Source: Streptomyces sp. NRRL S-87
Lineage (GTDB): Bacteria; Actinomycetota; Actinomycetes; Streptomycetales; Streptomycetaceae
Assembly: GCF_000719335.1 (NCBI RefSeq)
Contig: NZ_JOGB01000006.1
Coordinates: forward strand, 80,708-144,707
Reading direction: 5' to 3'
DNA: 64,000 bases
Part shown: positions 2,011 to 31,837 of the stretch, in pieces
How positions within the stretch are numbered: position 1 is the first letter of the stretch
Layout of the letters: the number at the start of each line of letters is the position of its first letter
The notes under the pieces: generated by a model
The model's input: only the letters and a program-made list of their open reading frames with translations
Told to the model about the DNA's origin: nothing
The model's database searches: none
Translations under genes and position numbers: made by a program

Positions 2011-2038
2011 CGGGTCGTGACCGCGGTGTCCCCGCGGC

Positions 2039-2066
2039 GCCCCCGCGCCCCGCCGGGCGCGGGGGC
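2039..2066 (+). terminator. GC-rich hairpin after the WD40 gene
   Basis: Perfect 12-bp inverted repeat (2039-2050 against 2055-2066, arm GCCCCCGCGCCC) with a 4-base loop, 28 bases after the WD40 stop. There is no U tract, as is usual in Streptomyces. It separates the first two genes from the peptidoglycan-binding gene. Confidence 0.55.
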
Positions 2067-2203
2067 ACGTGGGCGGGGGTGCGGCGACGGCCTGCTCGGG
2101 ACGAGGTGAGGAGCCACTCGGGGCGAGGTACGGTGGTCGTGAACGGTCCAGCCGGGGCCCGGCCGAGTTCGGCCGGCGTGCCCCCTTCCGACCGGATGTG
2201 GCG

Positions 2204-10498: not shown

Positions 10499-12931
10499 TC
10501 AGCGGGCGGCCGGTCCGCTCGTCACGGCCGTCCAGCTGCCGCCGGTCACCGTGTACACCGTCAGCCGACGGTTGACCGTGTCGCCGCTCCGGTCGAAGGC
10601 GACGCGGCCCGTGACCCCGTCGAAGCCCAGCCGGCCCACGGCCGGGGGGACCTGCGCCCGGGCGTCGCCCGGGAGAGTGCCGCCGTTCGCCGCCACGACC
10701 GCCCGCACGGCCTCGATGAGGGCCCAGGTCGCGTCGTACGCGTAGGGCCCGTACCAGCCGGCCGCTTCCGGGTATCCCGCCTTCCGGTACCGGGTGAGGA
10801 AGTCCCGCCCCGCCGCCGTTTCCCCGGCGGCGACGCCGATGTTGGTCGCGAGGTCACCCTCGGCCTCGCGGTTCGTCGTGAGGTACTGCTGGTCGAAGAT
10901 GCCGTCGCCCCCCATGAGGGGGATGTCCACCCCCGCCTCCTTGAGCTGCTGGGACAGCGGCGCCGCCGTGTCGTAGTAGCCGCCGAAGTACACGGCGTCG
11001 GCTCCCGAGGACCGCACCCGGGCGGCGAGGCCCGCGAAGGCGCGTTCCGCGGGATCGACCCGCTCGGTTCCGACGACGCTGCCGCCGAGCTTCGTGAACT
11101 CGGCGGTGAGCCCGGAGGTGAGGGCGGTGCCGTGGGCGCTCCCGTCGTCCACCACGTACAGCTTGGTCCTCTTCGCCTCGTCGTGCAGGTAGCGGGCGGC
11201 GAAGGGGCCCTGGTCGACGTCCGTCGCGACGGTGCGGAAGTAGGTGGAGGAGGGGCGGGACGTGGTCCCGGCGGCCCAGTCGGGGCCCAGCGTCAGCACG
11301 GGGTCGGTGTTGCCCGGTGACACGACGGCCACGTTCGCCCGCGTGAGCGGCGCCACCAGGGTCTTGGCGACGACGGAGTTCAGGGGGCCGACCACTCCCA
11401 GGACCTTCTCGTCGGAGACGAACCGGGCGGCGTTGGACGGGCCCTTGGCCGGGTCGGCCCCGTCGTCCAGGGCCTTGATCTCGAACGTCACCCCGGGGAC
11501 GCGCCCGGTCTCGTTGGCGGTCCGGACCGCCAGCTCGGCCGCGTTCCTGATGCCGACGCCCATGGCGGACAGGCCGCCGCTGAGCGGCGCGTCGACCCCG
11601 ATCACCACGGTGGCCGTGGACGCCGCCGCCCCGTTGCCGGCCGCCCTGCCGCCCCGAGGCGCGTCGTCGTCGCGGGTGAGGGTCCAGGTGAGCACGGATG
11701 CCGTGGCGAGCGTCGCCAGAACCGTGGCCAGGACCGCCGAACGCCGGGCGGGGTGCCGGCGTCGGGCCGACGCCCGCTCGCCGTCCTCGGTCCCGTTCGG
11801 GGCGGTGCTCGCGCCGGGTCCCCCGGGTGGGGCCTCGGGGACGGGCGGGGCGGTCGGCCGGTCCGGCACGGGGCGGGGTGGAGTGCCCGCGCCGGAGCCG
11901 GAGTCCAGGACGGTCGGGGTCCGCGGCGACGGTGTCGTGGGGGGCTGCTGCTCCTGGCCCGCCGGGGTGGGGGCGGGGGTCGGGGCGGGGGTCGGCGTCC
12001 CGTCGGGTGTCGGGAGGGGCGTCGCCCGCGGGTCGGGAGTACGCGGCGAGGTGGGCCCGGGCCCGTGTCCCGTCCCGGCGGAGGTGCGGGGTCCGGGCGT
12101 GGCGGACCGCAGCACCGATGCCAGCATCTCGGCTGCTTCGCCGGCGCCGACGCGCTGCGCCGGGTCCTTGGTGAGGAGCGCGTCCAGTACGGGCGCGAGT
12201 GAGCCGGCGCGGACCGCCGGCCGGTGCGGTCGGGTGAAGACGGCCACGGCGAGGGCGTGGAGTCCCTCCGCGTCGAACGGCGGGTGCCCCTCGACGGCGT
12301 GGTAGAGGGTCGCGCCGAGTGCCCACAGGTCGTTGGCGGGGGTCGGGCGCCTGCCCTCCAGCTGTTCCGGCGGCATGTAGTGGGGCGTGCCGATGACGCT
12401 CCCGCTCCGGCTCAGCCTGGTGGCGGTGTCCGCGAGGTGGGCGATGCCGAAGTCGGTCAGGACGACGCGGTCCTTGGTCAGGAGGACGTTGTCCGGCTTG
12501 ATGTCACGGTGGACGATGCCCGCGCCGTGCGCCTCGGCCAGCGCATCGAGCACGGCGGCGCCGATCTCGGCCACCCGCCGCACGGTGAGATGCCCGTCGC
12601 GGCGGATGACGGCGGCCAGGGACTGCCCGCGGACCAGCTCCATCACGATGACGGGGACGCCGTTGTGCTCCACGACGTCATGGATGGTGATGATCCCCGG
12701 GTGGCTGAGCGTGACCGCTGCGCGGGCCTCGCCGACGAACCGGCGGACCAGCGCGGCGCGGTCGGCGTCGTCCATGCCTGGCGGAAAAAGGATCTCCTTG
12801 ACCGCGACCTCACGTCCGAAGAGGTGCTGGTCGAGGCCGCGCCACACCCGGCCCATGCCGCCCTGGCCGATGCGTTCCACCAGCTGGTACCGGCCGGCGA
12901 TGAGTTCGGGTTGCTGCTCCGTCACGCGCAC
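10499..12931 (-). CDS. Ser/Thr protein kinase fused to an ABC-type amino-acid-binding receptor domain
   Basis: An 810-residue membrane protein. Residues 12-270 form a Hanks-type kinase: glycine loop GQGGMGRVW, Lys45 in VAVKEIL, HRDIKPDN with Asp143, DFG at 160-162. A Pro/Thr-rich linker leads to one transmembrane helix (about 398-418). The outside part (about 435-800) is a type I periplasmic-binding fold of the branched-chain amino-acid/Leu-Ile-Val class. This layout implies a receptor kinase that senses a small ligand outside and phosphorylates targets inside; ligand and targets are unknown. Start GTG 12931 has AGGA eight bases upstream; a GTG at 12925 is possible. No transporter permease or ATPase is near, so the binding domain is probably sensory. 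Confidence 0.92.
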   Translation of the reverse strand: MRVTEQQPELIAGRYQLVERIGQGGMGRVWRGLDQHLFGREVAVKEILFPPGMDDADRAALVRRFVGEARAAVTLSHPGIITIHDVVEHNGVPVIVMELVRGQSLAAVIRRDGHLTVRRVAEIGAAVLDALAEAHGAGIVHRDIKPDNVLLTKDRVVLTDFGIAHLADTATRLSRSGSVIGTPHYMPPEQLEGRRPTPANDLWALGATLYHAVEGHPPFDAEGLHALAVAVFTRPHRPAVRAGSLAPVLDALLTKDPAQRVGAGEAAEMLASVLRSATPGPRTSAGTGHGPGPTSPRTPDPRATPLPTPDGTPTPAPTPAPTPAGQEQQPPTTPSPRTPTVLDSGSGAGTPPRPVPDRPTAPPVPEAPPGGPGASTAPNGTEDGERASARRRHPARRSAVLATVLATLATASVLTWTLTRDDDAPRGGRAAGNGAAASTATVVIGVDAPLSGGLSAMGVGIRNAAELAVRTANETGRVPGVTFEIKALDDGADPAKGPSNAARFVSDEKVLGVVGPLNSVVAKTLVAPLTRANVAVVSPGNTDPVLTLGPDWAAGTTSRPSSTYFRTVATDVDQGPFAARYLHDEAKRTKLYVVDDGSAHGTALTSGLTAEFTKLGGSVVGTERVDPAERAFAGLAARVRSSGADAVYFGGYYDTAAPLSQQLKEAGVDIPLMGGDGIFDQQYLTTNREAEGDLATNIGVAAGETAAGRDFLTRYRKAGYPEAAGWYGPYAYDATWALIEAVRAVVAANGGTLPGDARAQVPPAVGRLGFDGVTGRVAFDRSGDTVNRRLTVYTVTGGSWTAVTSGPAAR

Positions 12932-13228
12932 ACTCTAGGTCCTGCTGAGCCGGTCGGGTGACGGAAGCGTGGCTTGATCGCATCGGTTGTCGGGCCCCGC
13001 CTGCGCGCCCGGCGCGGGCCGGTGTCCCCCACTTCCGGCCCGCGCCGGTCCCGTTCGATCGCGTGTCGACCCTGCCGATGCCGCCGTCGAGGGGGCCTGC
13101 ACCCCGGAGCCCGTCAGGTCCTCGGCCGCGGGGTGGCTGGCGGGGAGGCGGCGGATCCAGATGTCGTCGTCATGAACGCGCGGTCCTTTCTCGGCGGTTC
13201 TGCCCGGGTGGTGTCCACGCTGCCGCGG
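12932..13228. other. Intergenic region without a supported gene
   Basis: About 300 bases between the start of the kinase gene and the end of the small membrane-protein gene, both read leftward. I see only low-complexity open frames with no family features. It should hold the kinase promoter, but no clear -10/-35 pair stands out. Confidence 0.5.
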
Positions 13229-13390
13229 CTACCACCGGTACCAGCGGCCGTTGCTGCCCGCGGGGCGGGCGATGAAGCCCAGCAGCCAGAGGACGAGGAC
13301 CGCGACGGCGACCCACCACAGAACCTTCACGGCGAAGCCGACGCCGAAGAGGATCAGCGCGAGGAGGAGAACGAGGAGCAGCGGGACCAT
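13229..13390 (-). CDS. Small hydrophobic membrane protein
   Basis: A 53-residue protein, nearly all membrane-spanning: two hydrophobic stretches (about 2-18 and 20-38) with a short charged tail ending NGRWYRW. It resembles the small lmo0937-like/hydrophobic proteins common in actinomycetes and linked to envelope stress. ATG 13390 has AGGAGG nine bases upstream, which fixes the start; the frame stays open further upstream but that part looks non-coding. Function unknown. Confidence 0.75.
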   Translation of the reverse strand: MVPLLLVLLLALILFGVGFAVKVLWWVAVAVLVLWLLGFIARPAGSNGRWYRW

Positions 13391-13537
13391 GTCTGTGAAC
13401 CTCCTTGGGCTCGTGGCCCGGTAGCGGAAGAACGACTGCGTCGTCATGGCGCTCGCCTGCCCAGGATCCGCGGGTTGACTCATCGTCCGTCCTACCGGGC
13501 GGCCATGGCCCCGGACCCTTCCCCTTTTCGTCCCCTT

Positions 13538-13565
13538 GACGATATCGATACTCCCGATTATCGTC
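13538..13565. promoter_or_regulatory. AT-rich inverted repeat in the divergent promoter region
   Basis: GACGATA (13538-13544) and TATCGTC (13559-13565) form a perfect 7-bp inverted repeat 14 bases apart, in a stretch that is much richer in A and T than its surroundings and lies 26-53 bases before the SPFH start. The spacing suits a dimeric regulator or overlap with the -10/-35 region. The regulator is unknown. Confidence 0.45.
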
Positions 13566-13590
13566 ACACTGACGAAACAGGGGGTCCTCC

Positions 13591-14604
13591 ATGGCCGACA
13601 TCACCCGGCGCTTCGGCTGGCGCCATCTGCGCTCCGCGCCCACCGCCCACATCCGCCACCACAAGCGCGGTCGGCTCGTCCACGACGGCCGAGGGCTCAG
13701 CTTCTGGTACCGGTCGCTGTCGGCGGCGCTGTCCGAAGTGCCCGTCGACGACCGGGAGCTGGCCATGGCCTTCCACGCCCGTACGTCCGACTTCCAGGAC
13801 GTCACCGTGCAGGCCACCGTCACCTACCGGATCAGCGATCCGGCCGAGGCGGCGGACCGGCTCGACTTCTCCGTCGACCCGGACACCGGCAGCTGGCGCG
13901 GCGCCCCCTTGGAGCAGATCTCCACCCTCCTCACCGAGACCGCGCAGCAGCACGCGCTGGACGTGCTGGCCCGGACCCCGTTGGCCGTCGCCCTGGTGGA
14001 CGGCGTCGCCTCCGTACGGAAGAGCGTCGCCACCGGTCTCGCCGCCGAACCCAGGCTCCCGGCCACCGGCCTCGACGTGGTGGCCGTACGCGTCGTCGCG
14101 ATCCGGCCCGAGGCCGAGGTGGAGCGCGCCCTGCGCACCCCGGCCCGCGAGCAGATCCAGCAGGAGGCGGACCGGGCCACGTACGAACGGCGGGCCGTCG
14201 CCGTCGAGCGCGAGCGGGCGATCGCCGAGAACGAGCTGGCCAGTCAGATCGAACTGGCCCGGCGCGAGGAGCAGTTGGTCGAGCAGCGCGGTGTCAACGC
14301 GCGTCGCGAGGCCGAGGAGAAGGCAGCGGCCGACAGCGTACGGACCGAGGCCGAGGCGGCGCGCAAGGTCCGCCTGGCCCGCGCGGACGCCGAGGCGGCA
14401 CGCGCGACGGGATCGGCCCGCGCCGAGGCCCAGGCCGCCTGGCTGCAGGTGCACGGCGAAGCCGGCCCGGGCACGTTGTACGCCCTGGCGGCGACCCGGC
14501 TGGCGGAGAACCTGCCGCGGGTCGAGAGCATCACGCTGTCCCCGGACGTCCTCACCGGCCTCCTCAGCAGGCTCGGGCGCCCCGGATCCGGAGCCGACGC
14601 GTGA
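13591..14604 (+). CDS. SPFH/Band 7 domain protein
   Basis: A 337-residue protein. The SPFH domain spans about residues 30-190 (VPVDDRELAMAFHARTSDFQDVTVQATVTYRISDP, given here only as a region; core TYRISD). It is followed by a long charged coiled coil (about 190-285) rich in Ala, Glu and Arg that would drive oligomerisation, as in flotillins. Unlike flotillin or stomatin, it has no N-terminal membrane helix, so it may be soluble or peripherally bound. The start has GGGGGT upstream. Its stop overlaps the next start (GTGA), so it is coupled with the NAD-kinase-like gene. Confidence 0.85.
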   Translation: MADITRRFGWRHLRSAPTAHIRHHKRGRLVHDGRGLSFWYRSLSAALSEVPVDDRELAMAFHARTSDFQDVTVQATVTYRISDPAEAADRLDFSVDPDTGSWRGAPLEQISTLLTETAQQHALDVLARTPLAVALVDGVASVRKSVATGLAAEPRLPATGLDVVAVRVVAIRPEAEVERALRTPAREQIQQEADRATYERRAVAVERERAIAENELASQIELARREEQLVEQRGVNARREAEEKAAADSVRTEAEAARKVRLARADAEAARATGSARAEAQAAWLQVHGEAGPGTLYALAATRLAENLPRVESITLSPDVLTGLLSRLGRPGSGADA

Positions 14605-21569: not shown

Positions 21570-22058
21570 TCAGCAGTAGTCGGCGGTGTTCCGCACCTCG
21601 CCGAAGCGGGGGAAGCTCCGCTCCACGGTGAACTCGTGCTCGTCCGCGGCCAGTCCGGACATCGCGTCGGCCACGAACTCCAGCTCGTAACCGTGGTCGG
21701 CCGCGGCCCGTGCGGTGGATTCGACACCCATCGTGGTGACCAGCCCGGCGACCACCACGGTGTCCACACCGCGCTTGCGCAACTGCTCGTCCAGGTCGGT
21801 GCCGTAGAACGCCCCGACGGTGCGCTTGACCACCACGATGTCGCCGTCCTGCACCAGGTCGTCGGCGAAGTCGCTGCCCGGCGGCTGTTCGGCGACGTTC
21901 GGGCGCTCCACCCGGACCAGCACGACCGGTCGGCCGTCGGCCCGGAAGGACGCGGCCAACGCGCGGCAGCGCACGAGCACTTCGTCACCGGAGTGCGGTG
22001 CCAGAGGGAGGGCGATGATGCGCGGCATCAGGTCGACGAGGATCAGTGCGGAGGTCAT
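21570..22058 (-). CDS. Isochorismatase-fold protein lacking the catalytic cysteine
   Basis: A 162-residue protein with the isochorismatase/nicotinamidase fold. The N-terminal Asp (LILVDLMPR) and the Lys (VVVKRTVGAF) of the usual triad are present, but the cysteine position is glycine: TTMGVESTAR where active enzymes have xxxCVxxTAR. Gly versions are known in part of this family, so either chemistry differs or it binds rather than cleaves. It is the last gene of the long leftward run, 18 bases after the 1667-residue fusion, and may be cotranscribed. Start ATG 22058; a GTG at 22064 is also possible. Confidence 0.8.
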   Translation of the reverse strand: MTSALILVDLMPRIIALPLAPHSGDEVLVRCRALAASFRADGRPVVLVRVERPNVAEQPPGSDFADDLVQDGDIVVVKRTVGAFYGTDLDEQLRKRGVDTVVVAGLVTTMGVESTARAAADHGYELEFVADAMSGLAADEHEFTVERSFPRFGEVRNTADYC

Positions 22059-22076
22059 GGCCACGATCGTAGGCCG

Positions 22077-25000
22077 TCAGGGGGTGGCGAAGTCGGGTCC
22101 GTACTGTGTGCGCGCCGCCGTCTTGATCTTGGCGATCGCCGTCCCGAAGTCGGCCCGGGACACCCCGCCCGGGTGGGTGTAGTCGTACGTGGCGGTGAGC
22201 TTGAAGGGTCTGACCACGAACGCGGGCGTGGGCGCATCGCTCTTGTGTCCCGCCTTCCACGGTACGGAGCTGAAGTTGCGCCGCTTGAGGAAGCACGCGT
22301 CCGTGAAGGACAGCGTCGAGTCGACCCACCGCCCCGAGATCTTCGCGAAGGCGGCCCGCGTCTCGGTGTCCGACTGGCCGTCGAGGGACAGGAGCAGGGC
22401 GGCGACCTGGCGTTCGGCCTCGGCGACGAAGGGGCCGCCCGCCTTCAGGGTGCGCTCGGCGACCAGCGTGCCGAGGTAGTTGGAGCACAGGTCCTCCGGC
22501 GAGAAGGAGGAGTTGTGCCGCCCGACCATCCACGGCCGGCCGCACGCGCCGGCTCCGAGGGGGTAGGTGACGATCTCGTGCGCCAGGGCGTCGTCGTAGG
22601 CGATGGACCGCGCCAGCTCCATCCACTCCGTGCGCGGAGCGTCGGAGGTCAGGACCGCCTCCCCGCCCTCCGCCGTGCCGACCTTGGTGCCCTTGCGGCC
22701 GCCGGCACGGTGGATCTCCTGGTAGGCGAAGGCCGTGCCGTCGCAGGTGTCCCAGAGGTGGCCGAGGTCCACGAAACCGGCCTTGCCCGTGTACACCGTC
22801 CTCGGGGTGCGGTCGGCGTGGTCGCCGAAGGTGCTCACACCCGCGAGCGAGCCCGACTCGAGCATGCAGCACGGCCGGGTCACCGGACGGGCCGCGGACA
22901 TGGGCGGGCTCGGCGGGGCGGTGACGGGGGCGAGTCCGGCATCGAGGGCCGCCCAGGTGTGCGGCCCGATCTCGCCGTCCTGCTCCCCGGGCTTGCCGGG
23001 GAAGGCCATCCGCTGGAACGCCAGCACCACGTCGTGCGTGTGCTTCGCGAACTGGCAGTCGTCGACCAGGGGCGCGCCGGGGATCCCCGGCCGGCCGGCC
23101 GCCACCTCGTCGGCGTGGATCGCGTTGAGGCGGCGCTGCGCCGCGCGCACCGCCGTGTGCTCGGAACCACGCTTCAGCAGCCGCGGGCGGGCGGCGGGAG
23201 GTACGGGCACGTCGGGGCAGGGCCCGACCGCTTCGCCGTACTCCGCCTCCGCCTCCGCCTGCGCCAGCAGGCCGCTCAGCCCACCGGGCCCGATCATGTT
23301 CGCCTCACTCTCCGCCGCTTCCGTGCCGATGAACACGGCCAGTTGCGCAACGTCCTCGGGGGTCACCGGGGGCCGGCCGCAGGAAGCCCGCCAGGCCGCT
23401 CCCACCCGGAAGGCGGCGAGCAGCCCGGACTGCAACGCCCCCTCCATGTAGCCGAAGAAGCCCGGTGAGGCCTGCTCACCGGCGAAGAACAACCGTCCCG
23501 CGTAGGAGCCGCTCAGGTTCTTCGCCACCGTGGTGACCTGGTTCTTGCCGGGGACCGAGTAACCGGTGCGGATGAAGGGCTCCTTGGGCCAGTCGGCCAT
23601 CAGGGTCTTCTTCAACTCGGCCGGGTAGCGCGGGTAGAGCAGGGGCAACCGCGCCTGGTACTTCGTGGGGTCCAGCACGTAGCCGCCGCCGGAGTACACC
23701 GTCAGGCACCGGCCCGCAGGCGGCGTGTGCTGGTTGTCGGTGCCCTCCCACACGCTGCCGAGCTGGTCCCAGAGCGCCGTCGGGGCCAGCCCGTCCTTGG
23801 TCCAGATGTCGTCGTCGAACGTGCTGAGGAACTTCACGCAGGGCCCGTGCTGCATGGTGTAGTCGGCCGGTACGAAGGGCGTGTGGCCGGTGACCGTCGG
23901 CCAGACGGCCGGCGGGGCGGCCATGATCGCGTAATCGAAGTCGGCGGTCGCGGCCCTCCCGCCCGACAGGGAGGTGACACGGATCCCGCCGGTCCGCGCC
24001 TCCACGGCGGTGACCTCGGTGTCGAGCCGGATGCCCGTCAGGCTCCCCGCGAGCGCGGCCGCGAGCCTGTCGTTGCCGCCCTGGCAGCGACGGGTCTCGG
24101 TGAGGCTCCAGTAGGCGAGCATGTCCCCGAAATAGGAGTGGGCCTTCACCGCGGCCAGGAAGCCGAGGTAGCTCTGGTCCGCCACCGGCACGCACTGGTC
24201 GTTCTCCGTCACGAACTCGAAGAAGTGCCGGGCCGGAGAGGAGGCCCGGCCGAACATGTCCGTGTCGTCGAGCCGGTCCGACAGCGACATGGCGTCCAGT
24301 TTCGCCGCGTCCCGGCTGGTCCAGGGGCGCCGGGCGTCGACCGCGCGGGCCTCCGCGCCGATCCTGCGCAGCACCGGCCGGAGGTCCGCCGCGAGCTTCT
24401 TCTGCTCGGGTTCCGTGAGGTCGTGGCTGCCGAACCGCAGGCGCACCTCGAGCGGCGGCTTCATGCGGCCGTAGTCTTCCTTGCTGGTGATCTTCTCCAG
24501 GGTGAGGCCGAAGGCCTTGGCCAGGGCCCGCCATGCCACGTGGTTCTCGCCGATCAGCTCTGCGCCGGCCTCGAGGACCTTGCCGGGGATCAGGGACCGG
24601 TCGGTGCGCACCCTGCCGCCGAGCTCTTTGGCCGCCTCGAACAGGGTGACCTGGACGCCGGCCGCGGTCAGCCACCAGGCCGCCGCGAGCCCGGCGAAAC
24701 CGCCGCCGATCACTGCGACCTTCATCCTGGACGGGGCGCAGGGGTCGGCCGGGAGGGTGATCGGCACTTTGAGGGCCGCTTCGAGCGCGGCCCAGGTCCT
24801 GGGGCCGATCCGCCCGTCGTGCTCCCTCGGCCGGTCGGGAAAGACCCGCCTCTGGAAGTCGAGGACGGCGGCGTACGTGCGGTCGCCGAACGCGCAGTCC
24901 ACCACCAGCGGGACGTACGGCAACCCCAGCCGCCCGGAGCGGAGTTCGCGTGCCCCGAAGGCGTTGAGGAGGCGTTGCGCGTCGCCCACCGCGGGGTGCC

Positions 25001-27080
25001 GCGACCCGGTCCGGAGCACGGCCGGCCGCGCGCCGGCGGCCACGGGCTCCCCACAGCCGGGCACCGCGGCCGGGCCGGCCGCTTCCGACATCGGCTCCGG
25101 CAGACGTCGCGCCGTCGGATCGGGCTCCGGCTCCGGCACGGGCTGCGGCTGCGCCATGCGCGCGAGGTCGGGTGCGGGGCACGGGCCGGCGGCCTGGGCG
25201 GGCAGGAGGGGTACTCCCGGCGCCGCGGGCCCGGCCCCGGGCGCGCGGACCGCGGCGACCGCACGGTCGGTCCGCAGGTAGCCGCTGCCCACCCGGCGCG
25301 GGTCGACGCCCGGTCCGGGCGGTTCGCAACCGGCCAGCAGCGCCCGGCGGGTCTCCTCGATGGCCAGCGGGCGGCCGGCCGCCTGGAACATGAGCGCCAC
25401 GGTGCCGGTCACCGCGGGGGCGGCCATGGACGTACCCGACATCCGCACGTACGCCGGGCCGCCCGCGCCGTCGCGCGGCCGTGACCTCGCGCCGGTGACC
25501 CGCACGCCCGGCGCCGCGAGGTCGGGCTTCTGGCGTCCGTCGCGCGTCGGACCGCAGGAGGAGAACGGTGCCGGCGGCCGGCCTTCGTCGTGGGCGTCGT
25601 ACGCACCGACCGTGAGCGTGCGGAAGCCGTTGGCCAGGGTGCCGAGCGTGGTGTCGGTGTCGACGTCGGCGTCACCGAAGTGCGCCTGGCAACTGCGGCA
25701 GCCGCCGTCGCGCTCGATCCAGGCGTGCACCCGGCCGTCGACCACGTCGTCGGCGCGCAGGGTGACGTCCCAGCCGGTCACGTGGGGGGCGGGGTCCAGG
25801 AAGAGGGCGATCTGGTGGTCGCCGTTGTTGGGGTCGCAGGCCCGGTGGTGGATGCGCCCGGTCTCCCGGCCCCCGATCCGTACCGCGCCGCGGCCGCCCA
25901 GCGGTACCGACTGCCGGTGGGCGCCGTCCGCGGTGGCCACGGTGACGGTCAGCCGGTCCCGGCCGGGGTACCAGATGTCGACCTGGTTGGCGGTCCGGTC
26001 GGCGGGGTCCACCTCGACGCGGAAGGTCCGCTCCTCCCCCGGGCGCAGCCGCCAGGAGGCGTGCGTGCGGCGCTGGAAGTAGTTGCCGCAACTCAGCACG
26101 ATCGCACGGCCCTTCGCCGTGCCGACCAGGTGGTCGAGGGCCTGGTCCAGCAGTTGGCGGCCGGTGTGCTCGCCGGCGTGCCGGCCCAGGCTCAGGTTGA
26201 TGACGCACGGGCGGTCCCCCGCCGTCTCGAAGATCATCGCGCAGGCGTCGAGGATGTCGCCGGAACTGCCCAGTGGCACGCCCCCCGTTCCGGCCCGGCC
26301 GGGCAGGCTGACGGCGACGATCGCGGCCTCCGGCGCGACACCCGGCGGCCCCCCGGCCAGGCCTCCGCCGGCCGCGATGCTCAGGGTGTGGGTGCCGTGC
26401 GCGCCGGATCCGTGGTCGAAGTCGGCGGGGTGGTACCCCAGGGCGCGGTACGGGTCGGGCCGGCGCAGGGCCGCGTCGAGGTGGGCGGAGGTGAACAGCC
26501 GTCCGGTGCCGCTCGGGCCGGGCAGGCCCCGGATCCGGCCGTGATCCCCGGGACCTCCGGGATCTCCGGGATCTCCGGGATGGGCCGGATACCCGGGATC
26601 CCAGGCCCGGTGCCCGGGGTTCCAGGCCGGGTGCCCGGGGTCCCGGTGGTCCACCGGGCGCTGGTCCCAGAGCGCCAGTAGCCGTGACGTCCCGTCCGGA
26701 CGGCGGAAGTCGGGGTGGGCGAAGTCGATGCCCCAGTCGGCGATGCCGATGACGACCCCGCGACCGGTCTCGGCCGGCTGCGGCCCCCGGTGCCGGTGCT
26801 CGACCGCCCCGGCCCCCGTCGGGGCCGCGCGGTGCGGGGCGTCGTGCTCCGGTGCCTCGACGTCCGGGGCGTACAGGTGCGGCGCCTTGACACTGAGGGT
26901 CCCGGGGTCGGCCCACAGGTCCGGGATGTCCCTGCGGCGCACCCGGACCGTGGCGATGTCACCGAAGGTGTTGACGACCCGCACCGACGCGGGTGGCCGC
27001 TGCGGATCCCGCAACCGCACGATGACGCCGACCTCGTCGTCGGGGCCGTGGCGGGCCAACTCGTACAGCGCCGGATCCAT
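22077..27080 (-). CDS. Five-part fusion: subtilase, PG-binding, flavin amine oxidase, PG-binding, C-terminal domain
   Basis: One uninterrupted 1667-residue frame. A short N-terminal domain (1-80) precedes an S8 subtilisin-type peptidase with Asp115 (IADWGID), His228 (GAHGTHT) and Ser551 (SGTSMAAP). The catalytic domain is split by a Gly/Asp/Pro repeat (about 145-185) and a beta insert. Then come PG_binding_1 (about 687-768), an FAD amine oxidase (786-1225) opening with the dinucleotide motif VIGGGFAGL and closing with FFAGEQASPGFFGYMEGAL, a second PG_binding_1 (about 1298-1382), and a C-terminal domain (about 1400-1667) with HNSSFSPEDLCSNYLG that resembles DUF4056. No signal peptide is present. 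All catalytic residues of both enzymes appear intact. Codon use is uniform across the junctions, arguing against an assembly artefact. The combined role is unknown. Confidence 0.88.
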   Translation of the reverse strand: MDPALYELARHGPDDEVGVIVRLRDPQRPPASVRVVNTFGDIATVRVRRRDIPDLWADPGTLSVKAPHLYAPDVEAPEHDAPHRAAPTGAGAVEHRHRGPQPAETGRGVVIGIADWGIDFAHPDFRRPDGTSRLLALWDQRPVDHRDPGHPAWNPGHRAWDPGYPAHPGDPGDPGGPGDHGRIRGLPGPSGTGRLFTSAHLDAALRRPDPYRALGYHPADFDHGSGAHGTHTLSIAAGGGLAGGPPGVAPEAAIVAVSLPGRAGTGGVPLGSSGDILDACAMIFETAGDRPCVINLSLGRHAGEHTGRQLLDQALDHLVGTAKGRAIVLSCGNYFQRRTHASWRLRPGEERTFRVEVDPADRTANQVDIWYPGRDRLTVTVATADGAHRQSVPLGGRGAVRIGGRETGRIHHRACDPNNGDHQIALFLDPAPHVTGWDVTLRADDVVDGRVHAWIERDGGCRSCQAHFGDADVDTDTTLGTLANGFRTLTVGAYDAHDEGRPPAPFSSCGPTRDGRQKPDLAAPGVRVTGARSRPRDGAGGPAYVRMSGTSMAAPAVTGTVALMFQAAGRPLAIEETRRALLAGCEPPGPGVDPRRVGSGYLRTDRAVAAVRAPGAGPAAPGVPLLPAQAAGPCPAPDLARMAQPQPVPEPEPDPTARRLPEPMSEAAGPAAVPGCGEPVAAGARPAVLRTGSRHPAVGDAQRLLNAFGARELRSGRLGLPYVPLVVDCAFGDRTYAAVLDFQRRVFPDRPREHDGRIGPRTWAALEAALKVPITLPADPCAPSRMKVAVIGGGFAGLAAAWWLTAAGVQVTLFEAAKELGGRVRTDRSLIPGKVLEAGAELIGENHVAWRALAKAFGLTLEKITSKEDYGRMKPPLEVRLRFGSHDLTEPEQKKLAADLRPVLRRIGAEARAVDARRPWTSRDAAKLDAMSLSDRLDDTDMFGRASSPARHFFEFVTENDQCVPVADQSYLGFLAAVKAHSYFGDMLAYWSLTETRRCQGGNDRLAAALAGSLTGIRLDTEVTAVEARTGGIRVTSLSGGRAATADFDYAIMAAPPAVWPTVTGHTPFVPADYTMQHGPCVKFLSTFDDDIWTKDGLAPTALWDQLGSVWEGTDNQHTPPAGRCLTVYSGGGYVLDPTKYQARLPLLYPRYPAELKKTLMADWPKEPFIRTGYSVPGKNQVTTVAKNLSGSYAGRLFFAGEQASPGFFGYMEGALQSGLLAAFRVGAAWRASCGRPPVTPEDVAQLAVFIGTEAAESEANMIGPGGLSGLLAQAEAEAEYGEAVGPCPDVPVPPAARPRLLKRGSEHTAVRAAQRRLNAIHADEVAAGRPGIPGAPLVDDCQFAKHTHDVVLAFQRMAFPGKPGEQDGEIGPHTWAALDAGLAPVTAPPSPPMSAARPVTRPCCMLESGSLAGVSTFGDHADRTPRTVYTGKAGFVDLGHLWDTCDGTAFAYQEIHRAGGRKGTKVGTAEGGEAVLTSDAPRTEWMELARSIAYDDALAHEIVTYPLGAGACGRPWMVGRHNSSFSPEDLCSNYLGTLVAERTLKAGGPFVAEAERQVAALLLSLDGQSDTETRAAFAKISGRWVDSTLSFTDACFLKRRNFSSVPWKAGHKSDAPTPAFVVRPFKLTATYDYTHPGGVSRADFGTAIAKIKTAARTQYGPDFATP
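26552..26578. repeat. 9-bp tandem repeat inside the subtilase domain
   Basis: Three copies of GA(C/T)CTCCGG in a row, encoding part of the Gly-Asp-Pro linker of the subtilase. The surrounding 100 bases have looser copies of the same pattern (PGH, PGY, PGD units). The length probably varies by slippage. Confidence 0.7.
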
Positions 27081-27093
27081 CCTCGGCCGCTCC

Positions 27094-27147
27094 GATCGCT
27101 AGGACTTTCCCGATCGCCAGGACTTTCCCGGTCTCTAGGGCTTGCCC
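27094..27147. repeat. 18-bp tandem repeat at the PASTA/fusion gene junction
   Basis: Three copies of an 18-bp unit (GATCGCTAGGACTTTCCC and variants): copies one and two are nearly identical and fill most of the spacer before the fusion gene, and the third, more diverged, covers the last codons and stop of the PASTA gene. The spacer therefore looks like duplication of the gene's own 3' end. Confidence 0.75.
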
Positions 27148-27542
27148 GGCGAGGCCGGGGGGCGGGACGGTACGACCCCCTTGAGCTCACCCAGCTTCTT
27201 GAGCAGGTCCTCGTAGCGCTTCTTCGCCTCGGCCTCGGTCTCCAGTGACCTGACCGCTTCGGTCAGCTCCACCAGCCGGCGGTCGAGGTCGACGGGGCTG
27301 GGCGCCGTGGAGATCACGTGAACGGTCACCGTCGAGCCCGCCTCGACGATCGCACCGGCAGAGGGGTCGAGGCGGAAGACGGTGTCCTTGGCGCCCTCGG
27401 TGATGATCTCGTGGAACTGGGGGACCAGTCCGAGTGTCCTGAGCCGCTGCTCGGCCTCGCCGCGCTTGCGTCCCATCAGGTCGGGGACGCCCACCTGGCC
27501 GCCGGTCTGACCCGTGGCGGGTCCGAAGGTCAACGTGTCCAT
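27135..27542 (-). CDS. PASTA-domain protein
   Basis: A 135-residue protein. Residues about 18-75 form one PASTA domain (VGVPDLMGRKRGEAEQRL start, VEAGSTVTVHV end), a fold that in PknB-type kinases and PBPs recognises unlinked peptidoglycan. A helical, probably coiled-coil segment follows (about 83-120), then a Pro/Ser tail. There is no kinase, membrane helix or signal peptide, so it is a free PASTA protein. GAGG lies five bases before ATG 27542. It is seven bases after the preceding gene and 54 bases before the fusion gene, clearly in the same unit. Confidence 0.82.
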   Translation of the reverse strand: MDTLTFGPATGQTGGQVGVPDLMGRKRGEAEQRLRTLGLVPQFHEIITEGAKDTVFRLDPSAGAIVEAGSTVTVHVISTAPSPVDLDRRLVELTEAVRSLETEAEAKKRYEDLLKKLGELKGVVPSRPPASPGKP

Positions 27543-27549
27543 CTGCGCC

Positions 27550-28110
27550 TCACTTCTTGGTCAGCATCGACAGGAGGAGCAGGTTCGTCATCATGTCGCC
27601 GCCGAGTCCGCCCTTGCCGGCGTCGCCCCCGCTCATGCCGGGCATGAGGAGCAGCAGCGGCAGGAGGGTGGAGAACTGGTTCTGCGACTGCGTGACCACC
27701 TTGACCTGCTTGCTGCCGACGGAGGCGTCCACCGACTCCTGGGTGAGCATCGGCAGGAGCAGGGTGAGCATCTTGGTCTGCTGGAGGTCCGCCCGGATCA
27801 CGTCCGAGCCCTTCTTGCGCTCCTCGGCCTCCTTGCGGACGGTCGCGGCCAGCCGGTTCTGGCTGGCGGTGAGCGAATCGGTGCGTGCCTCCAGGGACTT
27901 GACCGCGTTGCCCAGGGTCTCGATCTTGCTGTCCAGGTTGCGGACGCTGCTCTGCACCTGGCTCTGGCTCGCGGGCGCCGGCGTATGTCTCGGTGTGAAG
28001 CTGCTGCGCCGGGAGGGCGTTCGCATGCTGCGGCGGCCCGGGGAGCCCTCGTCGAACTCGTCGAAGTCGAGGCCGTCCAGCAGGGTGTCGAGCTCGTCGT
28101 ACCCGCTCAT
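27550..28110 (-). CDS. Coiled-coil protein with hydrophobic C-terminal segments
   Basis: A 186-residue protein I do not recognise. It begins with an acidic helix (ELDTLLDGLDFDEFDE), has a basic Ser/Pro linker, then a coiled coil (about 55-115, NLDSKIETLGNAVKSLEAR), and ends with two short strongly hydrophobic stretches (STLLPLLLLMPG and DMMTNLLLLSML) split by a Gly-rich GGDAGKGGLGGD. The hydrophobic pieces are too short for ordinary membrane helices but could insert as an oligomer. Its ATG overlaps the upstream stop (ATGA), so it is coupled to the Zn-ribbon gene. Confidence 0.78.
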   Translation of the reverse strand: MSGYDELDTLLDGLDFDEFDEGSPGRRSMRTPSRRSSFTPRHTPAPASQSQVQSSVRNLDSKIETLGNAVKSLEARTDSLTASQNRLAATVRKEAEERKKGSDVIRADLQQTKMLTLLLPMLTQESVDASVGSKQVKVVTQSQNQFSTLLPLLLLMPGMSGGDAGKGGLGGDMMTNLLLLSMLTKK

Positions 28111-28613
28111 GGGTGGGTCCTTTCGCGCGGGGGTGGTGGTTCGGTGGGACGGGTGGGGGGAACACGCCGGTGGAGGCGGGCGTGTACGGCGACCGCGGGG
28201 CGTACCAGGCGGGCGAAGAGGGCCGGCTCCGGGGTGGTGAAGCCGGGCGCGCCCCGCCCGCGGCACCAGCGGCAGGTGTGCTCCGCGCCGAAGCAGGCGG
28301 GGCAGGCGCCGAGCGCGGCCGCCAGGTCGTCCAGCAGCTCGTACGCGGCGTCCCGTTGGGCGGTGAGCTCGGCAACGTGCCGGCGGACCGCCGCGGCCCG
28401 CTCCTCACGGCCTGCGAGCCGCCGGGCGTCCTCGGCCGCCCGGCGCTCGGCCTCCTCGGCCTCCGCCAGTTCCTGCTGCAACCGCGCCTCGCGCTCGCCG
28501 AGCAGCTGGGCCAGTTGGGCCGCGGGGCTGTCCGCGGCGATCCGGCCATCGGCGGCCGCGTCCCCCGAGAAGTGGCGCTGCAACATCTCGAGCATCTGCG
28601 GCGACACGGTCAC
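28107..28613 (-). CDS. Coiled-coil protein with a zinc-ribbon
   Basis: A 168-residue protein I do not recognise by name. Residues about 30-85 are a long Ala/Glu/Arg coiled coil. A CPAC...CRWC motif (about 103-116) gives a four-cysteine zinc ribbon much like those of DnaJ or rubredoxin knuckles. The C-terminal part is Pro/Arg-rich. GTG 28613 overlaps the stop of the glycine-zipper gene (GTGA), and its own stop overlaps the next start. It may be an assembly factor or chaperone for its neighbours; this is inference from order and coupling only. Confidence 0.78.
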   Translation of the reverse strand: MTVSPQMLEMLQRHFSGDAAADGRIAADSPAAQLAQLLGEREARLQQELAEAEEAERRAAEDARRLAGREERAAAVRRHVAELTAQRDAAYELLDDLAAALGACPACFGAEHTCRWCRGRGAPGFTTPEPALFARLVRPAVAVHARLHRRVPPTRPTEPPPPRERTHP

Positions 28614-29677
28614 CGGGTGTTGACCAGATCGTAGAACCGGGCCTCGAAGTCCTCGGCGTCCGTCAGGGCGTCGTCGTACGCGGCGTCGTCGTACGCGGCG
28701 TCCTCGTACGCGGCGTCCTCGCCGAACTGGTCGTCGCGGGACAGGTGGTAGTAGTCCGACTCGTCGTACTCGTATCCCGACTCGGACTCGGACTCGTCGA
28801 ACTCGGAACCGTCGAAGGGGAACTCGTCGTGGCCGGGGTCCGCGAGGGGCGCCCCGTCGGAGCCGGAGTGGTCGTCACGGCCGTGCGCGCCGGTGTCGCC
28901 GGCGCCGGCGAAGCGCGTGCTCCGCGCGTTCCCCCCGCAGCCGCACCCGCCGCCCGGTGCCGGACCCCCGGGGCCGTGCCCCTCGGACTCGGCGAGCAGG
29001 CGCAGGAGACCACCAGCCCGCTCCTCGCCCTCGGCCCCCTCGGCCCGGCCGACGGACTCCGTCCACTCCGCACCGGCTTGCCGGGCCAGTGCGCCGAGCA
29101 GGCCCGCGAAGGTTCCGGCCCGCACCGGGACGCCCTGCTGCCCCACGGCCACGGGGGCCGTGCTGCCGGAGGCGAGCGCGGCCAGCGCCCGGGTCCACTC
29201 GGGCCGGCCGAGCAGGGCCAACAGCGCGGAGGTGGCGGAGCCCGCGCCTGCCGTCGCCGGGCCCGGGAGGCCGGGGGGCGTTCCGCCACGGCCGGCGAGC
29301 ATGCCCGCGGCGCCCAGGGCACTACCGGTTCCGGCGCCCACGCCGCGGCCCTCACGGCCCCCGTACTGCTGGAGCGCCGACCCCGTACCACCGAGCAACG
29401 CGCCGCCGAGCGCCCCGAAGGGACCGAGGGCACTGCCTGCCGCGGCCCCGCGGAGGATGCCCGGACCGGCCGCCGAGGCGACTCTGCCGACCTGCCTGGC
29501 CGCCTTCTCCAGGGTCCTGCCGAGGCCGCCGAAGAATTCCTCGTACTCGGCGGGCGTGCCCTCCCCGAACGCGTCAGCGAAGGCCTCCTCCAACTCCCGG
29601 TCGGAGAGCCCGGAGTACCGGGGGTCGAGGACCTCGCGCAACTGCGGGTAGTAGGTGCCCGCGTAGGATTCCGTCAT
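28610..29677 (-). CDS. Glycine-zipper protein with acidic Tyr-rich tail
   Basis: A 355-residue protein. The N-terminal helices (about 20-55) contain AEYEEFFGGLGRTLEKAA; residues about 65-105 are a glycine-zipper region (AAAGSALGPFGALGGALLGG) able to span or pack in a membrane; the middle is Ala/Gly-rich; a CGCGG cysteine pair sits at about 258-262; the last 90 residues are acidic and Tyr-rich, ending in DAAY-type repeats. I recall similar layouts (acidic E/D/Y tail plus FFGGLGR plus glycine zipper) in uncharacterised bacterial proteins, but know no function. No signal peptide. GGAGG lies just before ATG 29677. It heads the coupled genes of the island. Confidence 0.8.
   Translation of the reverse strand: MTESYAGTYYPQLREVLDPRYSGLSDRELEEAFADAFGEGTPAEYEEFFGGLGRTLEKAARQVGRVASAAGPGILRGAAAGSALGPFGALGGALLGGTGSALQQYGGREGRGVGAGTGSALGAAGMLAGRGGTPPGLPGPATAGAGSATSALLALLGRPEWTRALAALASGSTAPVAVGQQGVPVRAGTFAGLLGALARQAGAEWTESVGRAEGAEGEERAGGLLRLLAESEGHGPGGPAPGGGCGCGGNARSTRFAGAGDTGAHGRDDHSGSDGAPLADPGHDEFPFDGSEFDESESESGYEYDESDYYHLSRDDQFGEDAAYEDAAYDDAAYDDALTDAEDFEARFYDLVNTR
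28668..28720. repeat. 15-bp tandem repeat encoding acidic DAAY units
   Basis: Three full copies and part of a fourth of a 15-bp unit (GCGTCGTCGTACGCG and one variant) near the 3' end of the glycine-zipper gene. Each encodes five residues of the form Asp/Glu-Asp-Ala-Ala-Tyr. The unit length is a multiple of three, so copy-number change keeps the frame. Confidence 0.8.
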
Positions 29678-29971
29678 ACGGACCTCCGTTCGCACCGGCC
29701 TGCGCGACAGGCCGACGTTCCCAAGGGAGCACGCGGCCGATGCGCCGTGCCACCGGACACGCCGCGCACCCCCCGGCACGCCCCGCAAGGCCGCCTCCGA
29801 CCGGGCTACGGCGCCTCCCGGGACACCGGTCCCGCGCTCCGCAGGCTGCGCGGCTGCGACCGCTGCCACGCGTGCGGCGGGCGGGACGGCAGCCGCACGG
29901 CATCGGCCGGGGGGAACGGCGTGGGCGTCGCGGTGCCGGCGGTCAGACGGGGTCAGGTGGGCCGTTCGAAG

Positions 29972-30544
29972 TCATTCGCGGCCGAGGTGGCGCAGGAGGC
30001 GGGCGCGTTCGGCGGAGACGCCGGCTGCGGGTGCGGGGGCTGCCGGCTTCCCGCGGGGTTCCCCCGCGTGGGCGGCGAGCGCGTCCTCGATGGCGGTGCT
30101 GGTGAGGTGGACCGCCTGTTCGGTCCATTCCTGCGGCCAGGCGGTGATGAGGTACTGCTCGACGGGATCGTGGTCGGTGCCGTCGGGGTTGTGGGTGCGG
30201 CCGGTGGCGTGGACGCGCAGGCGGTACCAACCGGGGCCCCGGGCGGTGAGGTACGGCAGTTCGTCGGTGACGTAGCCGGGGTCGACGAACATGGCGCCGT
30301 CGGGCGAGTGGACGCTGGCCTCGACGATCTCCTCCCACGAGCCGGTCTCGACCGGGGGCGCCTGGTCGAGGACTTGCGTGCGCACGCTCACGGGCCCGGT
30401 GTGGATGCCGGTCAGGATCCAGGCTCCGGAGTCCATCGGTGCGAGCAGCCCGTTCGACCAGCGAGTGGAGTTCACATCGACGGTCTCCCCGTCCGAGATG
30501 GAGAACAGCCCGTCGTTGACGGATACGGCTAACGACATGTCCAT
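29972..30544 (-). CDS. Uncharacterised protein with a TTA codon near the start
   Basis: A 190-residue protein, mostly beta-rich (VSVNDGLFSISDGETVDV, GPGWYRLRVHATG), with an Ala/Pro-rich C-terminal tail. I do not recognise the family. The fifth codon is TTA (leucine), read in Streptomyces by the bldA tRNA, so translation may wait for the developmental stage at which that tRNA is active. Start ATG 30544; ATG 30538 would make TTA the third codon. It lies 294 bases upstream of the glycine-zipper gene and may or may not be in the same transcript. Confidence 0.7.
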   Translation of the reverse strand: MDMSLAVSVNDGLFSISDGETVDVNSTRWSNGLLAPMDSGAWILTGIHTGPVSVRTQVLDQAPPVETGSWEEIVEASVHSPDGAMFVDPGYVTDELPYLTARGPGWYRLRVHATGRTHNPDGTDHDPVEQYLITAWPQEWTEQAVHLTSTAIEDALAAHAGEPRGKPAAPAPAAGVSAERARLLRHLGRE

Positions 30545-30688: not shown

Positions 30689-31543
30689 CTAGCGGCCGAT
30701 GAGGACGCGGAAGGGGTCACCTTGCAGGACGCGCTCGGCCCGGTAGAAGTTGGTGGTCACCCCGCCCTGGTAGTTCTGGTCGCCCTCGGCGATGTAGCAC
30801 GCGCTCGCGCCCTTCGGCCCGCTCCGCGAGGGCACCCCGCGGACGGAGCAGCCGGGGAAGGTGCGGCGCTGGCCCCCGGCGGACATGCCCTGCTGCGAGG
30901 TGGCCAGCGGGTACTCGTCGCACGTCTTGCCCCGCGGGCGGGTCTCCCGCGGCGGGCAGGCCCGGTCCCGGTTCAGCCTGCGGACCGACTCCGTCGTCGT
31001 ACGGGTCAACGGCCTGTCGAACGTCGCGCCGGGCAGCCCGGAGCGCTGGGCGCGGGTGATGTGGGAGGCCAGTTGGGGCGCGCCGGCCTTGCTGTAGATC
31101 ATCGGGGAGGCGTACCAGGGGACGACGCAGCCGACGCGGGGGCGGCCGGCGGTGGCGTTGTCGCAGCGGAACTCGTTCAGCGTGACCTTCGTGGTGGCCG
31201 GCGTGTAGGGGGCGTTGGTGAAGGTGAGCGTCCAGGTGGTGGCGCAGCGGCCGATCGCCCCGGTCCGGGTGGCGGTGGTGTCGAAGAACGACTCCCCGAG
31301 CTTCCACGAGTTCAGAGGGGCGAGCTTCTTGGTGGGGAACTTCCACTCGGTGACCTTGCAGGCGCCGTTCTTCGTGGCCTTGCCGCCGAGGGAGGCCTTC
31401 ATGGCGTCGCCCCAGCCGCGGTAGGCGGAGACCTCCATCTGGTAGCCCCAGGTGGGCAGACCGGAGTCCCCGTAGCTGTAGTTGATCACGTTCATCTCGG
31501 CCTTGCCGGTGACCTGCCGGCGGCCCTGCACCACGGAACCCAT
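30689..31543 (-). CDS. NucA/NucB-type deoxyribonuclease domain protein, probably N-terminally truncated
   Basis: A 284-residue frame. The C-terminal third carries the NucA/NucB nuclease signature: CDEYPLATSQQG and GDQNYQGG, with paired cysteines around. The N-terminal part (VVQGRRQVTGKAEM, GYQMEVSAYRGWGDA) reads like the middle of a longer secreted protein, and there is no signal peptide although the family is normally exported. The start given (ATG 31543) has no good ribosome-binding site. I therefore think the 5' end has been lost; the break lies roughly 100-170 bases from the tRNA gene. The nuclease core itself looks intact. Confidence 0.65.
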   Translation of the reverse strand: MGSVVQGRRQVTGKAEMNVINYSYGDSGLPTWGYQMEVSAYRGWGDAMKASLGGKATKNGACKVTEWKFPTKKLAPLNSWKLGESFFDTTATRTGAIGRCATTWTLTFTNAPYTPATTKVTLNEFRCDNATAGRPRVGCVVPWYASPMIYSKAGAPQLASHITRAQRSGLPGATFDRPLTRTTTESVRRLNRDRACPPRETRPRGKTCDEYPLATSQQGMSAGGQRRTFPGCSVRGVPSRSGPKGASACYIAEGDQNYQGGVTTNFYRAERVLQGDPFRVLIGR

Positions 31544-31652
31544 CCCCGAGCACGAGCGGCGGCGTGGACAAGTGGACTGCCGCGAGGCGCGACGGCGCCG
31601 TGCCGCGGGCAACGGGGCCCGCGGTCAAGGGGCGGAGGAGGCGGGGCGGGGC

Positions 31653-31726
31653 GGGGCCGGCCGGATTCGAACCGGCGTCCTCATGATTTTGGAGACCACG
31701 CGCGTCGACCTCTGCGCTACGGCCCC
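31653..31726 (-). tRNA. tRNA-Trp (CCA anticodon), atypical
   Basis: Cloverleaf on the minus strand: acceptor GGGGCCG/CGGCCCC (31720-31726 with 31653-31659), T arm GCCGG-TTCGAAT-CCGGC, D stem GCGC/GCGC, anticodon loop CTCCAAA (31688-31694) with U33 and anticodon CCA for UGG. The anticodon stem GTGGT/ATCAT has two G-U pairs, no base remains for position 26, and the variable loop is six bases, so it departs from the usual tRNA-Trp. The 3' CCA is not encoded. It may be a second, divergent tRNA-Trp. Confidence 0.8.
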
Positions 31727-31837
31727 GCCCACCTCCGCATCCTAGGCGCCGCACACGTCGCACGTCCCCCGGGTCCCCGCGCCGGCGTCCCGCCAGGGTT
31801 GCGGGACCGCGCCCGCCGACCGGCGCTGCTCAACGGC

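Follow-up and report, generated by a model that had tools for sequence, protein, structure and literature searches.

A rare, probably mobile gene module of Streptomyces sp. NRRL S-87 that joins a Csp-type subtilase to exchangeable enzyme cargo and may act on cell envelopes

Do the seven leftward genes that lie side by side in a stretch of Streptomyces sp. NRRL S-87 DNA (64,000 nucleotides of contig NZ_JOGB01000006.1, hereafter the window) make up one functional unit, and what would such a unit do? A first-pass annotation, made from the sequence alone, had described them as a seven-gene operon. We find all seven genes in place on the minus strand, but only five of them belong together, in a unit that runs from 29677 to 22077 (minus strand) and is present in a single copy in the 8.15-Mb genome. 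In this unit and its relatives, exchangeable enzyme cargo is fused behind the protease of a constant chassis, which consists of small proteins 1 to 3, usually also 4, and the prodomain and Csp-type subtilase of the large protein. We give about an even chance to the interpretation that the five genes belong to an undescribed kind of polymorphic effector module, headed by a protease and spread horizontally, that is aimed at envelopes, likely for competition. The five genes, and the parts of the large protein encoded by the last of them, are as follows.

28610..29677, minus strand: gene 1 (P0002, 355 amino acids), with an N-terminal helical domain (YPxLREvLxP...EYEEFFGGLG), a glycine zipper, a small helical domain and an acidic, low-confidence tail
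28107..28613, minus strand: gene 2 (P0004, 168 amino acids; GTG start), a coiled coil with a single zinc-ribbon-like motif, ALGACxxCxG....CxxCxGxG
27550..28110, minus strand: gene 3 (P0005, 186 amino acids; ATG start), with a long helix at residues 49-122 (coiled coil) and a hydrophobic, glycine-containing C-terminus, LLPLLLLMPG..
27135..27542, minus strand: gene 4 (P0006, 135 amino acids), a single PASTA domain plus a charged stretch at the C-terminus, helical as judged by eye
22077..27080, minus strand: gene 5 (P0003, 1667 amino acids), in the order prodomain, Csp-type subtilase, PG_binding, flavin adenine dinucleotide (FAD) amine oxidase, PG_binding, DUF4056
26847..27080, minus strand: gene 5 prodomain, residues 1-78, with the conserved MDPALxEL...SVKAPRxY and no strongly hydrophobic signal
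25281..26771, minus strand: gene 5 subtilase, residues 104-600 (approximate bounds), with D115, H228, N333 and S551 and, between the last two, an insertion of the jellyroll type (by sequence alignment)
24783..25001, minus strand: gene 5 PG_binding_1, residues 694-766 (Pfam)
23403..24725, minus strand: gene 5 FAD amine oxidase, about residues 786-1226, with the dinucleotide motif GGGFAGL and the C-terminal AGEQASPGFFGYMEGALQSG
22956..23186, minus strand: gene 5 second PG_binding region, about residues 1299-1375 (Pfam; bounds by eye)
22269..22817, minus strand: gene 5 DUF4056 (CapCone lipocone), residues 1422-1604, with G1435, D1438, H1441 and S1524xxS1527xxD1530

The small genes are tightly packed. 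Genes 1 and 2 overlap in GTGA (28610-28613) and genes 2 and 3 in ATGA (28107-28110), four bases each, as had been noted before, while gaps of 7 and 54 bases precede genes 4 and 5, and a promoter and terminator scan gave no match on the minus strand. Pfam likewise confirmed the PASTA and isochorismatase-fold calls of the first-pass annotation and most of the architecture that it had drawn for the large protein (Peptidase_S8, two PG_binding_1 stretches and Amino_oxidase), in which, however, the DUF4056 domain had been overlooked.

The arrangement of these genes recurs elsewhere. The order of genes 1, 2, 3 and 5 is kept in 12 loci from Actinomycetota, Pseudomonadota and Gemmatimonadota, and gene 4 is a separate gene in nine of them. 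Eight of these loci were used to build profiles: the window; Virgisporangium aurantiacum (L002), Nonomuraea endophytica (L003) and a Sphingomonas sp. (L004), found via gene 1; and, found via the protease head, the plasmid loci of Cupriavidus oxalaticus (L006), Streptomyces canus (L007) and Gemmatirosa kalamazoonensis (L008), together with a locus of the Sphingomonas family (L024). The remaining four (L092-L095) served as a test set, obtained by searching 345 genomes of the Nonomuraea order with the prodomain profile alone, which gave five matches, one of them the known Nonomuraea. In these test loci, the profiles from the first eight recovered gene 2 in 4/4, gene 1 in 3/4, and gene 3 and gene 4 in 1/4 each; by eye, a divergent gene 1 is present in L094, and in L093-L095, which lack a separate gene 4, a coiled-coil gene 3 is directly followed by gene 5. 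As controls we took six loci with stand-alone Csp-like subtilases (three from Rhizobium, one each from Sphingobium, Paenibacillus and Acaryochloris, the last of which, L022, covers only ~370 bases upstream), and none of the six matched genes 1-4. The order in 12 loci and the controls together rule out that these genes are chance neighbours. The earlier proposal that the small proteins and the large enzyme act as a unit is thereby borne out, and the finding that it had named as fatal to itself, homologues that do not co-occur, did not arise for genes 1, 2, 3 and 5.

Two further observations accord with joint travel. Across the eight loci, the protein distances of genes 1, 2, 3 and 4 track the distances between the protease heads (r = 0.89, 0.89, 0.90 and 0.71, respectively; permutation p = 0.0002-0.0006), as expected of a unit that moves together, although shared descent alone could also give this result. 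Furthermore, 15 of the 19 gene-3 clusters whose longest contig measured at least 10 kb could be paired, by eye or, for L003, via the DNA, with a listed gene-1 or gene-5 cluster that has a contig of equal size.

The two outer genes of the proposed operon fare differently. They and the features next to them are:

21570..22058, minus strand: isochorismatase-fold protein, a YecD relative, outside the module
29972..30544, minus strand: immunity-like partner, by our assignment, of a NucA/NucB-type nuclease gene, outside the module
30689-31612, minus strand: NucA/NucB-type nuclease gene (Pfam)
31649-31727, minus strand: tRNA-Trp

One could read all seven genes as a metabolic or stress operon that includes the isochorismatase and the first gene, given that they share one strand throughout and that the isochorismatase ATG lies 18 bases past the gene 5 stop. 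We regard this as extremely improbable. Of 61 genomes from the window's genus, 60 have a homologue of the isochorismatase, many of these being paralogues, and a tblastn search of the module loci of 11 relatives found no homologue of either outer protein (best E = 0.57). The best relative of the isochorismatase in the PDB is YecD (1j2r, E = 2e-33), and the YecD model NF008517 is its best match in NCBIfam even though the score of 141.8 bits is below the cut-off of 195; the cysteine that it lacks, judged by what we take to be the family motif, is missing in YecD as well. The first gene (30544-29972), for its part, lies 294 bases upstream of gene 1 and pairs with the nuclease gene: a homologue of it was found near a NucA/NucB-type nuclease homologue in 9 of 28 other loci fetched from the 61 genus genomes, where two of the nine (L080 and L086) look like copies in one genome that also holds L059. 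Because of this recurrent neighbourhood, the NucA/NucB-type DNase and the 29972-30544 gene are probably a nuclease-immunity pair. The tRNA-Trp gene lies ~2 kb upstream of the module and is a possible integration site.

What varies between the modules is the cargo. We listed the best 120 of 277 prodomain-bearing proteins and counted domains in the 119 other than that of the window. LCAT and OmpA were found in 13 proteins each, amine oxidase and PLD in 9 each, VanY in 8, Amidase_2 in 7, peptidase M15 in 6, DUF4056 and tyrosinase in 5 each, and arginine deiminase and PhoD in 3 each, besides others, and these domains recur in many combinations. By class, there were 24 with wall hydrolases, 27 with lipid-acting domains and 14 with oxidases, and 65 of the 119 listed proteins carry at least one wall, lipid, oxidase, PAD, PhoD or chitosanase enzyme. 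Among the modules that we read, apart from the window, the cargo is an amine oxidase in L002, LCAT in L004 (where a PG-binding PLD protein is also encoded separately), VanY in L094, M15 in L095 and OmpA in L024 and L093, while L003, L006, L007, L008 and L092 had nothing above the Pfam cut-offs except PG-binding or S8. By eye, the C-terminal tails of gene 5 in L003 and L007 resemble one another (VPVxIYGGxNxLGQATxR); Pfam matched neither at E = 0.01, and they are possibly a new effector domain. On Rhizobium plasmids (L018, L019 and L023), stand-alone Csp-like subtilases lie near PLD, LodA/GoxA oxidase or CHAT genes, whose enzyme kinds are in part those of the fused cargo. The envelope targeting that had been proposed earlier thus draws support from the cargo repertoire and from the PASTA, Big_2, OmpA and PG-binding parts, but is not proven by them.

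Two enzymes make up the cargo of the window's own protein. The amine oxidase retains what we take to be the FAD motifs. The C-terminal domain matches DUF4056 (PF13265) at 58.2 bits, with a Pfam cut-off of 23.6, and G1435, D1438, H1441, S1524, S1527 and D1530 are invariant in all six proteins aligned. As described in the excerpted text of PMC12419801, CapCone lipocones have a glycine six residues before the H2 histidine, an xD motif before that histidine and S/GxxSxx before the H4 aspartate, a pattern that the window domain keeps when H1441 is taken, by our own assignment, as the H2 histidine; judged by these residues, it reads as a CapCone lipocone. According to the same excerpt, TelC, which belongs to the same clade as CapCone-DUF4056, cuts lipid II and is active only outside the cell, and CapCone-DUF4056 is not among the toxin tips that the excerpt lists. 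The window copy thus resembles the CapCone-DUF4056 lipocones in family match and motif, and differs from them in that it follows a subtilase and an amine oxidase within one fusion protein.

The protease head is the constant part of the large protein, with the triad residues intact in 12/12 loci. Its best relatives in the PDB are the clostridial Csp germination proteases, to which it aligns at sequence level through the jellyroll insertion: the insertion region was aligned to 9sj6_C, and the match to 4i0w (CspB) spans residues 198-566. The head may thus work like a Csp protease; because its score against the curated NCBIfam CspBA model (NF040809) was 106 bits, far under the cut-off of 1250, we do not file it as one.

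This kinship would fit a developmental role in wall remodelling, in which a Csp/SleC-like, non-secreted subtilase that keeps its prodomain would be stored and later activate a fused wall-cutting or cross-linking enzyme, for example in spore germination or mother-cell lysis. Several hosts of the module are sporulating actinomycetes, and the closest solved relatives of the head are germination proteases. Efficient cleavage of a cortex hydrolase depends on CspB, which is autoprocessed and keeps the prodomain (PMC3567191, in excerpt). The module shares with the Csp system (CspB/CspBA with SleC) the subtilase, the prodomain, the jellyroll-type insertion and the link to peptidoglycan-active enzymes, but its cargo is fused rather than separate, its named hosts are not Clostridia and its neighbours are others. 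It is also found in Sphingomonas, Cupriavidus, Gemmatirosa and, judged by protein names and locus tags, Deinococcus, which to our knowledge are not spore formers. Moreover, few genomes hold the module, which therefore does not look like a core developmental function, and the cargo varies widely. Taken together, we consider the developmental explanation unlikely.

The module is rare and probably mobile. Searches gave gene 3 in 1 of 150 genomes of the family (that of the window), gene 1 in 1 of 396 genomes of the phylum, and the prodomain in 2 of 249, 1 of 249, 2 of 398 (one of them a weak partial match) and the 5 of 345 mentioned above; each of these counts includes the own or centre genome, and the numbers of genomes are lower bounds. 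The unit is therefore rare, at <=1.5% of genomes in each search. The weak partial match lies in genome G1252 (L087; E = 8e-5). The window's protease head shares 49% identity with its Sphingomonas and Cupriavidus counterparts but 41% with the one in S. canus, and three loci are on plasmids, which is why we think that the unit probably moves between phyla. A plasmid search with the window's head gave 12 records and a second search 10, together 14 distinct ones; of these we read nine, and found the module in three of them and none in the other six. Transposase-like genes, recognised by eye, flank the module of L093 (reverse complement; 1797-3503 and 12348-13874). A viral origin was rejected: one IMG/VR scan brought up just one match, a short glycine-zipper one in L009, and another confirmed 0/115 pattern matches; in a phage collection, three unannotated records match the subtilase head, one of them over 85% of the query.

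A feature that recurs around the module is a regulator of the BTAD/SARP or LuxR type within ~3 kb in 10 of the 12 loci (in L094, downstream). The BTAD/SARP type is found in L004, L007, L024, L092 and L095 by Pfam and in L093 and L094 by eye, and the LuxR type in L002, L003 and L008 by Pfam, while none was recognised by eye beside the window copy or L006. Downstream genes differ from locus to locus: small genes of no assigned family follow the modules of L006 and L024, and none is obvious in the window. Downstream of the Cupriavidus module lies, by eye, a SIR2-like gene (L006, 13591-14640), possibly a defence neighbourhood.

The small proteins of the chassis are of unnamed families. Scans against Pfam, NCBIfam, PHROGs and PADLOC matched nothing to gene 1, only weak coiled coils to genes 2 and 3 (best E = 0.004) and essentially only PASTA to gene 4; in PADLOC, in particular, genes 2 and 3 gave weak coiled-coil scores (E = 0.01-0.04) and gene 4 matched only the PASTA tail of PD-T4-6. 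We thus rejected an assignment of genes 1-4 to any defence or phage family that already has a name, in agreement with the first-pass annotation, which had matched them to no named system, and our search of the open-licence full-text literature in PMC likewise found no description of the gene set. The glycine zipper claimed for gene 1 held up in one respect and failed in another. Its G77, G81, G85, G88, G92 and G96 do not vary across 43 sequences, which supports a zipper, but the GxxxG run was reached by 66, 156, 206 and 141 of 1000 composition shuffles in four loci and is not significant; in the window's gene 1, the longest exact run (residues 106-122) lies outside the conserved zipper. The zinc-ribbon-like motif of gene 2 is invariant in the first eight loci, and of the four test copies three carry CxC instead of the first CxxC. 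The PASTA domain of gene 4 scores 40.5 bits (Pfam cut-off 23.2), and PASTA is found in accessory proteins of five loci. In gene 3, Big_2 was matched in L093 (72.8 bits, three stretches) and, at 21.6 bits, just under the cut-off of 22.8, in L094; together with L095, judged by eye, these would represent a second subtype of gene 3, a coiled coil that ends in Big_2-type domains, without a separate gene 4.

Could these small proteins come together, in the membrane or as a carrier, in an assembly that takes the large enzyme out of the cell, as the first-pass annotation had suggested? Our data do not show this. Hydropathy is borderline for membrane helices, with 19-residue peaks of 1.26 in the window's gene 1 and 1.11 in gene 3, and the AlphaFold2 models of the two proteins are of low confidence (mean predicted local distance difference test scores of 63.5 and 67.3, respectively), with 0 and 4 PDB matches in fold recognition and a lowest E of 4.1. 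The boldest form of the assembly idea is that genes 1-4 are a new self-assembling export or packaging apparatus, which needs neither Sec or Tat nor a contractile tail to move any protease-head fusion from Gram-positive and Gram-negative producers onto foreign envelopes; we consider this rather unlikely.

The large protein itself offers little guidance on its route. Pfam scans of the gene 5 proteins revealed no Sec/Tat, PAAR, WXG/LXG, MuF or similar element, and the N-termini are at most mildly hydrophobic (12-residue hydropathy peaks of 0.08-1.34 in the eight loci). One way out would be a contractile injection system or phage-tail-like particle that is encoded elsewhere, carries gene 5 as its cargo and uses genes 1-4 as adaptors. 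A domain like gp19, the tail-tube protein of T4, was indeed found in P0169 (residues 759-832; 29.5 bits, cut-off 28.2) and, just under the cut-off, in P0211 (residues 643-736; 27.6 bits), and three of five module genomes tested, including that of the window, have a sheath gene. However, only 2 of the 119 listed heads carry gp19, two of the five genomes lack a sheath match, and no tail genes were seen at the 12 loci, whose flanks were read by eye and partly scanned. The likeness to extracellular contractile injection systems hence goes as far as rare gp19-like fusions and sheath genes elsewhere in the genome, and we think it quite unlikely that the module is such a cargo.

That no signal peptide was seen in gene 5, together with the mobile distribution, would also fit an intracellular suicide (anti-phage) effector, where a subtilase triggered inside the producer frees enzymes that destroy its own envelope. 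In PADLOC, the S8 part of gene 5 is matched by the subtilase model (E = 1e-24) and by that of IetS (E = 0.0009), and relatives of the protease lie near CHAT, PLD and LodA-type genes on the Rhizobium plasmids. Against this, genes 1-4 match nothing in PADLOC beyond the weak coiled coils and the PASTA tail already described, and PASTA, Big_2, OmpA and the wall hydrolases indicate a place of action outside the cell. We accordingly rate a suicide effector as very unlikely.

The favoured reading, a polymorphic effector module aimed at envelopes, would work as follows. The proteins of genes 1-4, with their coiled coils, zinc ribbon, glycine zipper and wall- or surface-binding PASTA/Big_2 parts, would build a particle or a complex on the surface, by which the large protein is held or set free outside the producer. 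Helped to fold by its prodomain, the subtilase would undergo self-processing in the manner of CspB and may release the cargo by cutting. In the case of the window, the amine oxidase, anchored by the PG_binding domains, would produce hydrogen peroxide at the wall, and the DUF4056 lipocone would cleave a lipid head group, of lipid II or of a phospholipid. The likely use would be competition with neighbouring bacteria.

Several observations weigh against this reading. The gene 5 protein has no signal peptide or known secretion hallmark by Pfam scans and hydropathy, and it could be intracellular or developmental. Of the 119 listed heads, 36 are annotated with nothing past S8/PG-binding, the module context is established for only a minority, and tyrosinase, PAD, amine oxidase and OmpA are not specifically antibacterial cargo. 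The gene 3 and gene 4 profiles failed in three of the four test loci and, given the rarity of the module, we know of no model strain with data. Finally, reading of the open reading frames in the 12 loci (in L095 the contig ends there) revealed no shared downstream gene and hence no recurrent immunity gene, which either fits targets outside the producer, as with TelC, or argues against a toxin.

Overall, the module is a real and probably mobile unit whose logic is most like that of polymorphic effector systems, built on a new chassis. With polymorphic toxin and effector systems it shares a constant head with exchangeable C-terminal enzymes, proteolytic and peptidoglycan-binding parts, and a patchy, mobile distribution; unlike them, it has whole multi-enzyme tails, keeps small partners of unnamed families in a fixed order, and showed no secretion hallmark or recurrent immunity gene. 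If our reading is right, bacteria possess a widely scattered but rare arming system in which one protease head bears more than 12 kinds of interchangeable enzyme tails, and which is common to Gram-positive and Gram-negative bacteria and present on plasmids. It would raise the question of how a protein of ~840 to 2,250 residues without a recognised signal peptide reaches envelopes in such different cells. New enzymes that attack walls and lipids could also be drawn from it, and the CapCone-DUF4056 lipocone would gain a natural context in which it can be tested.

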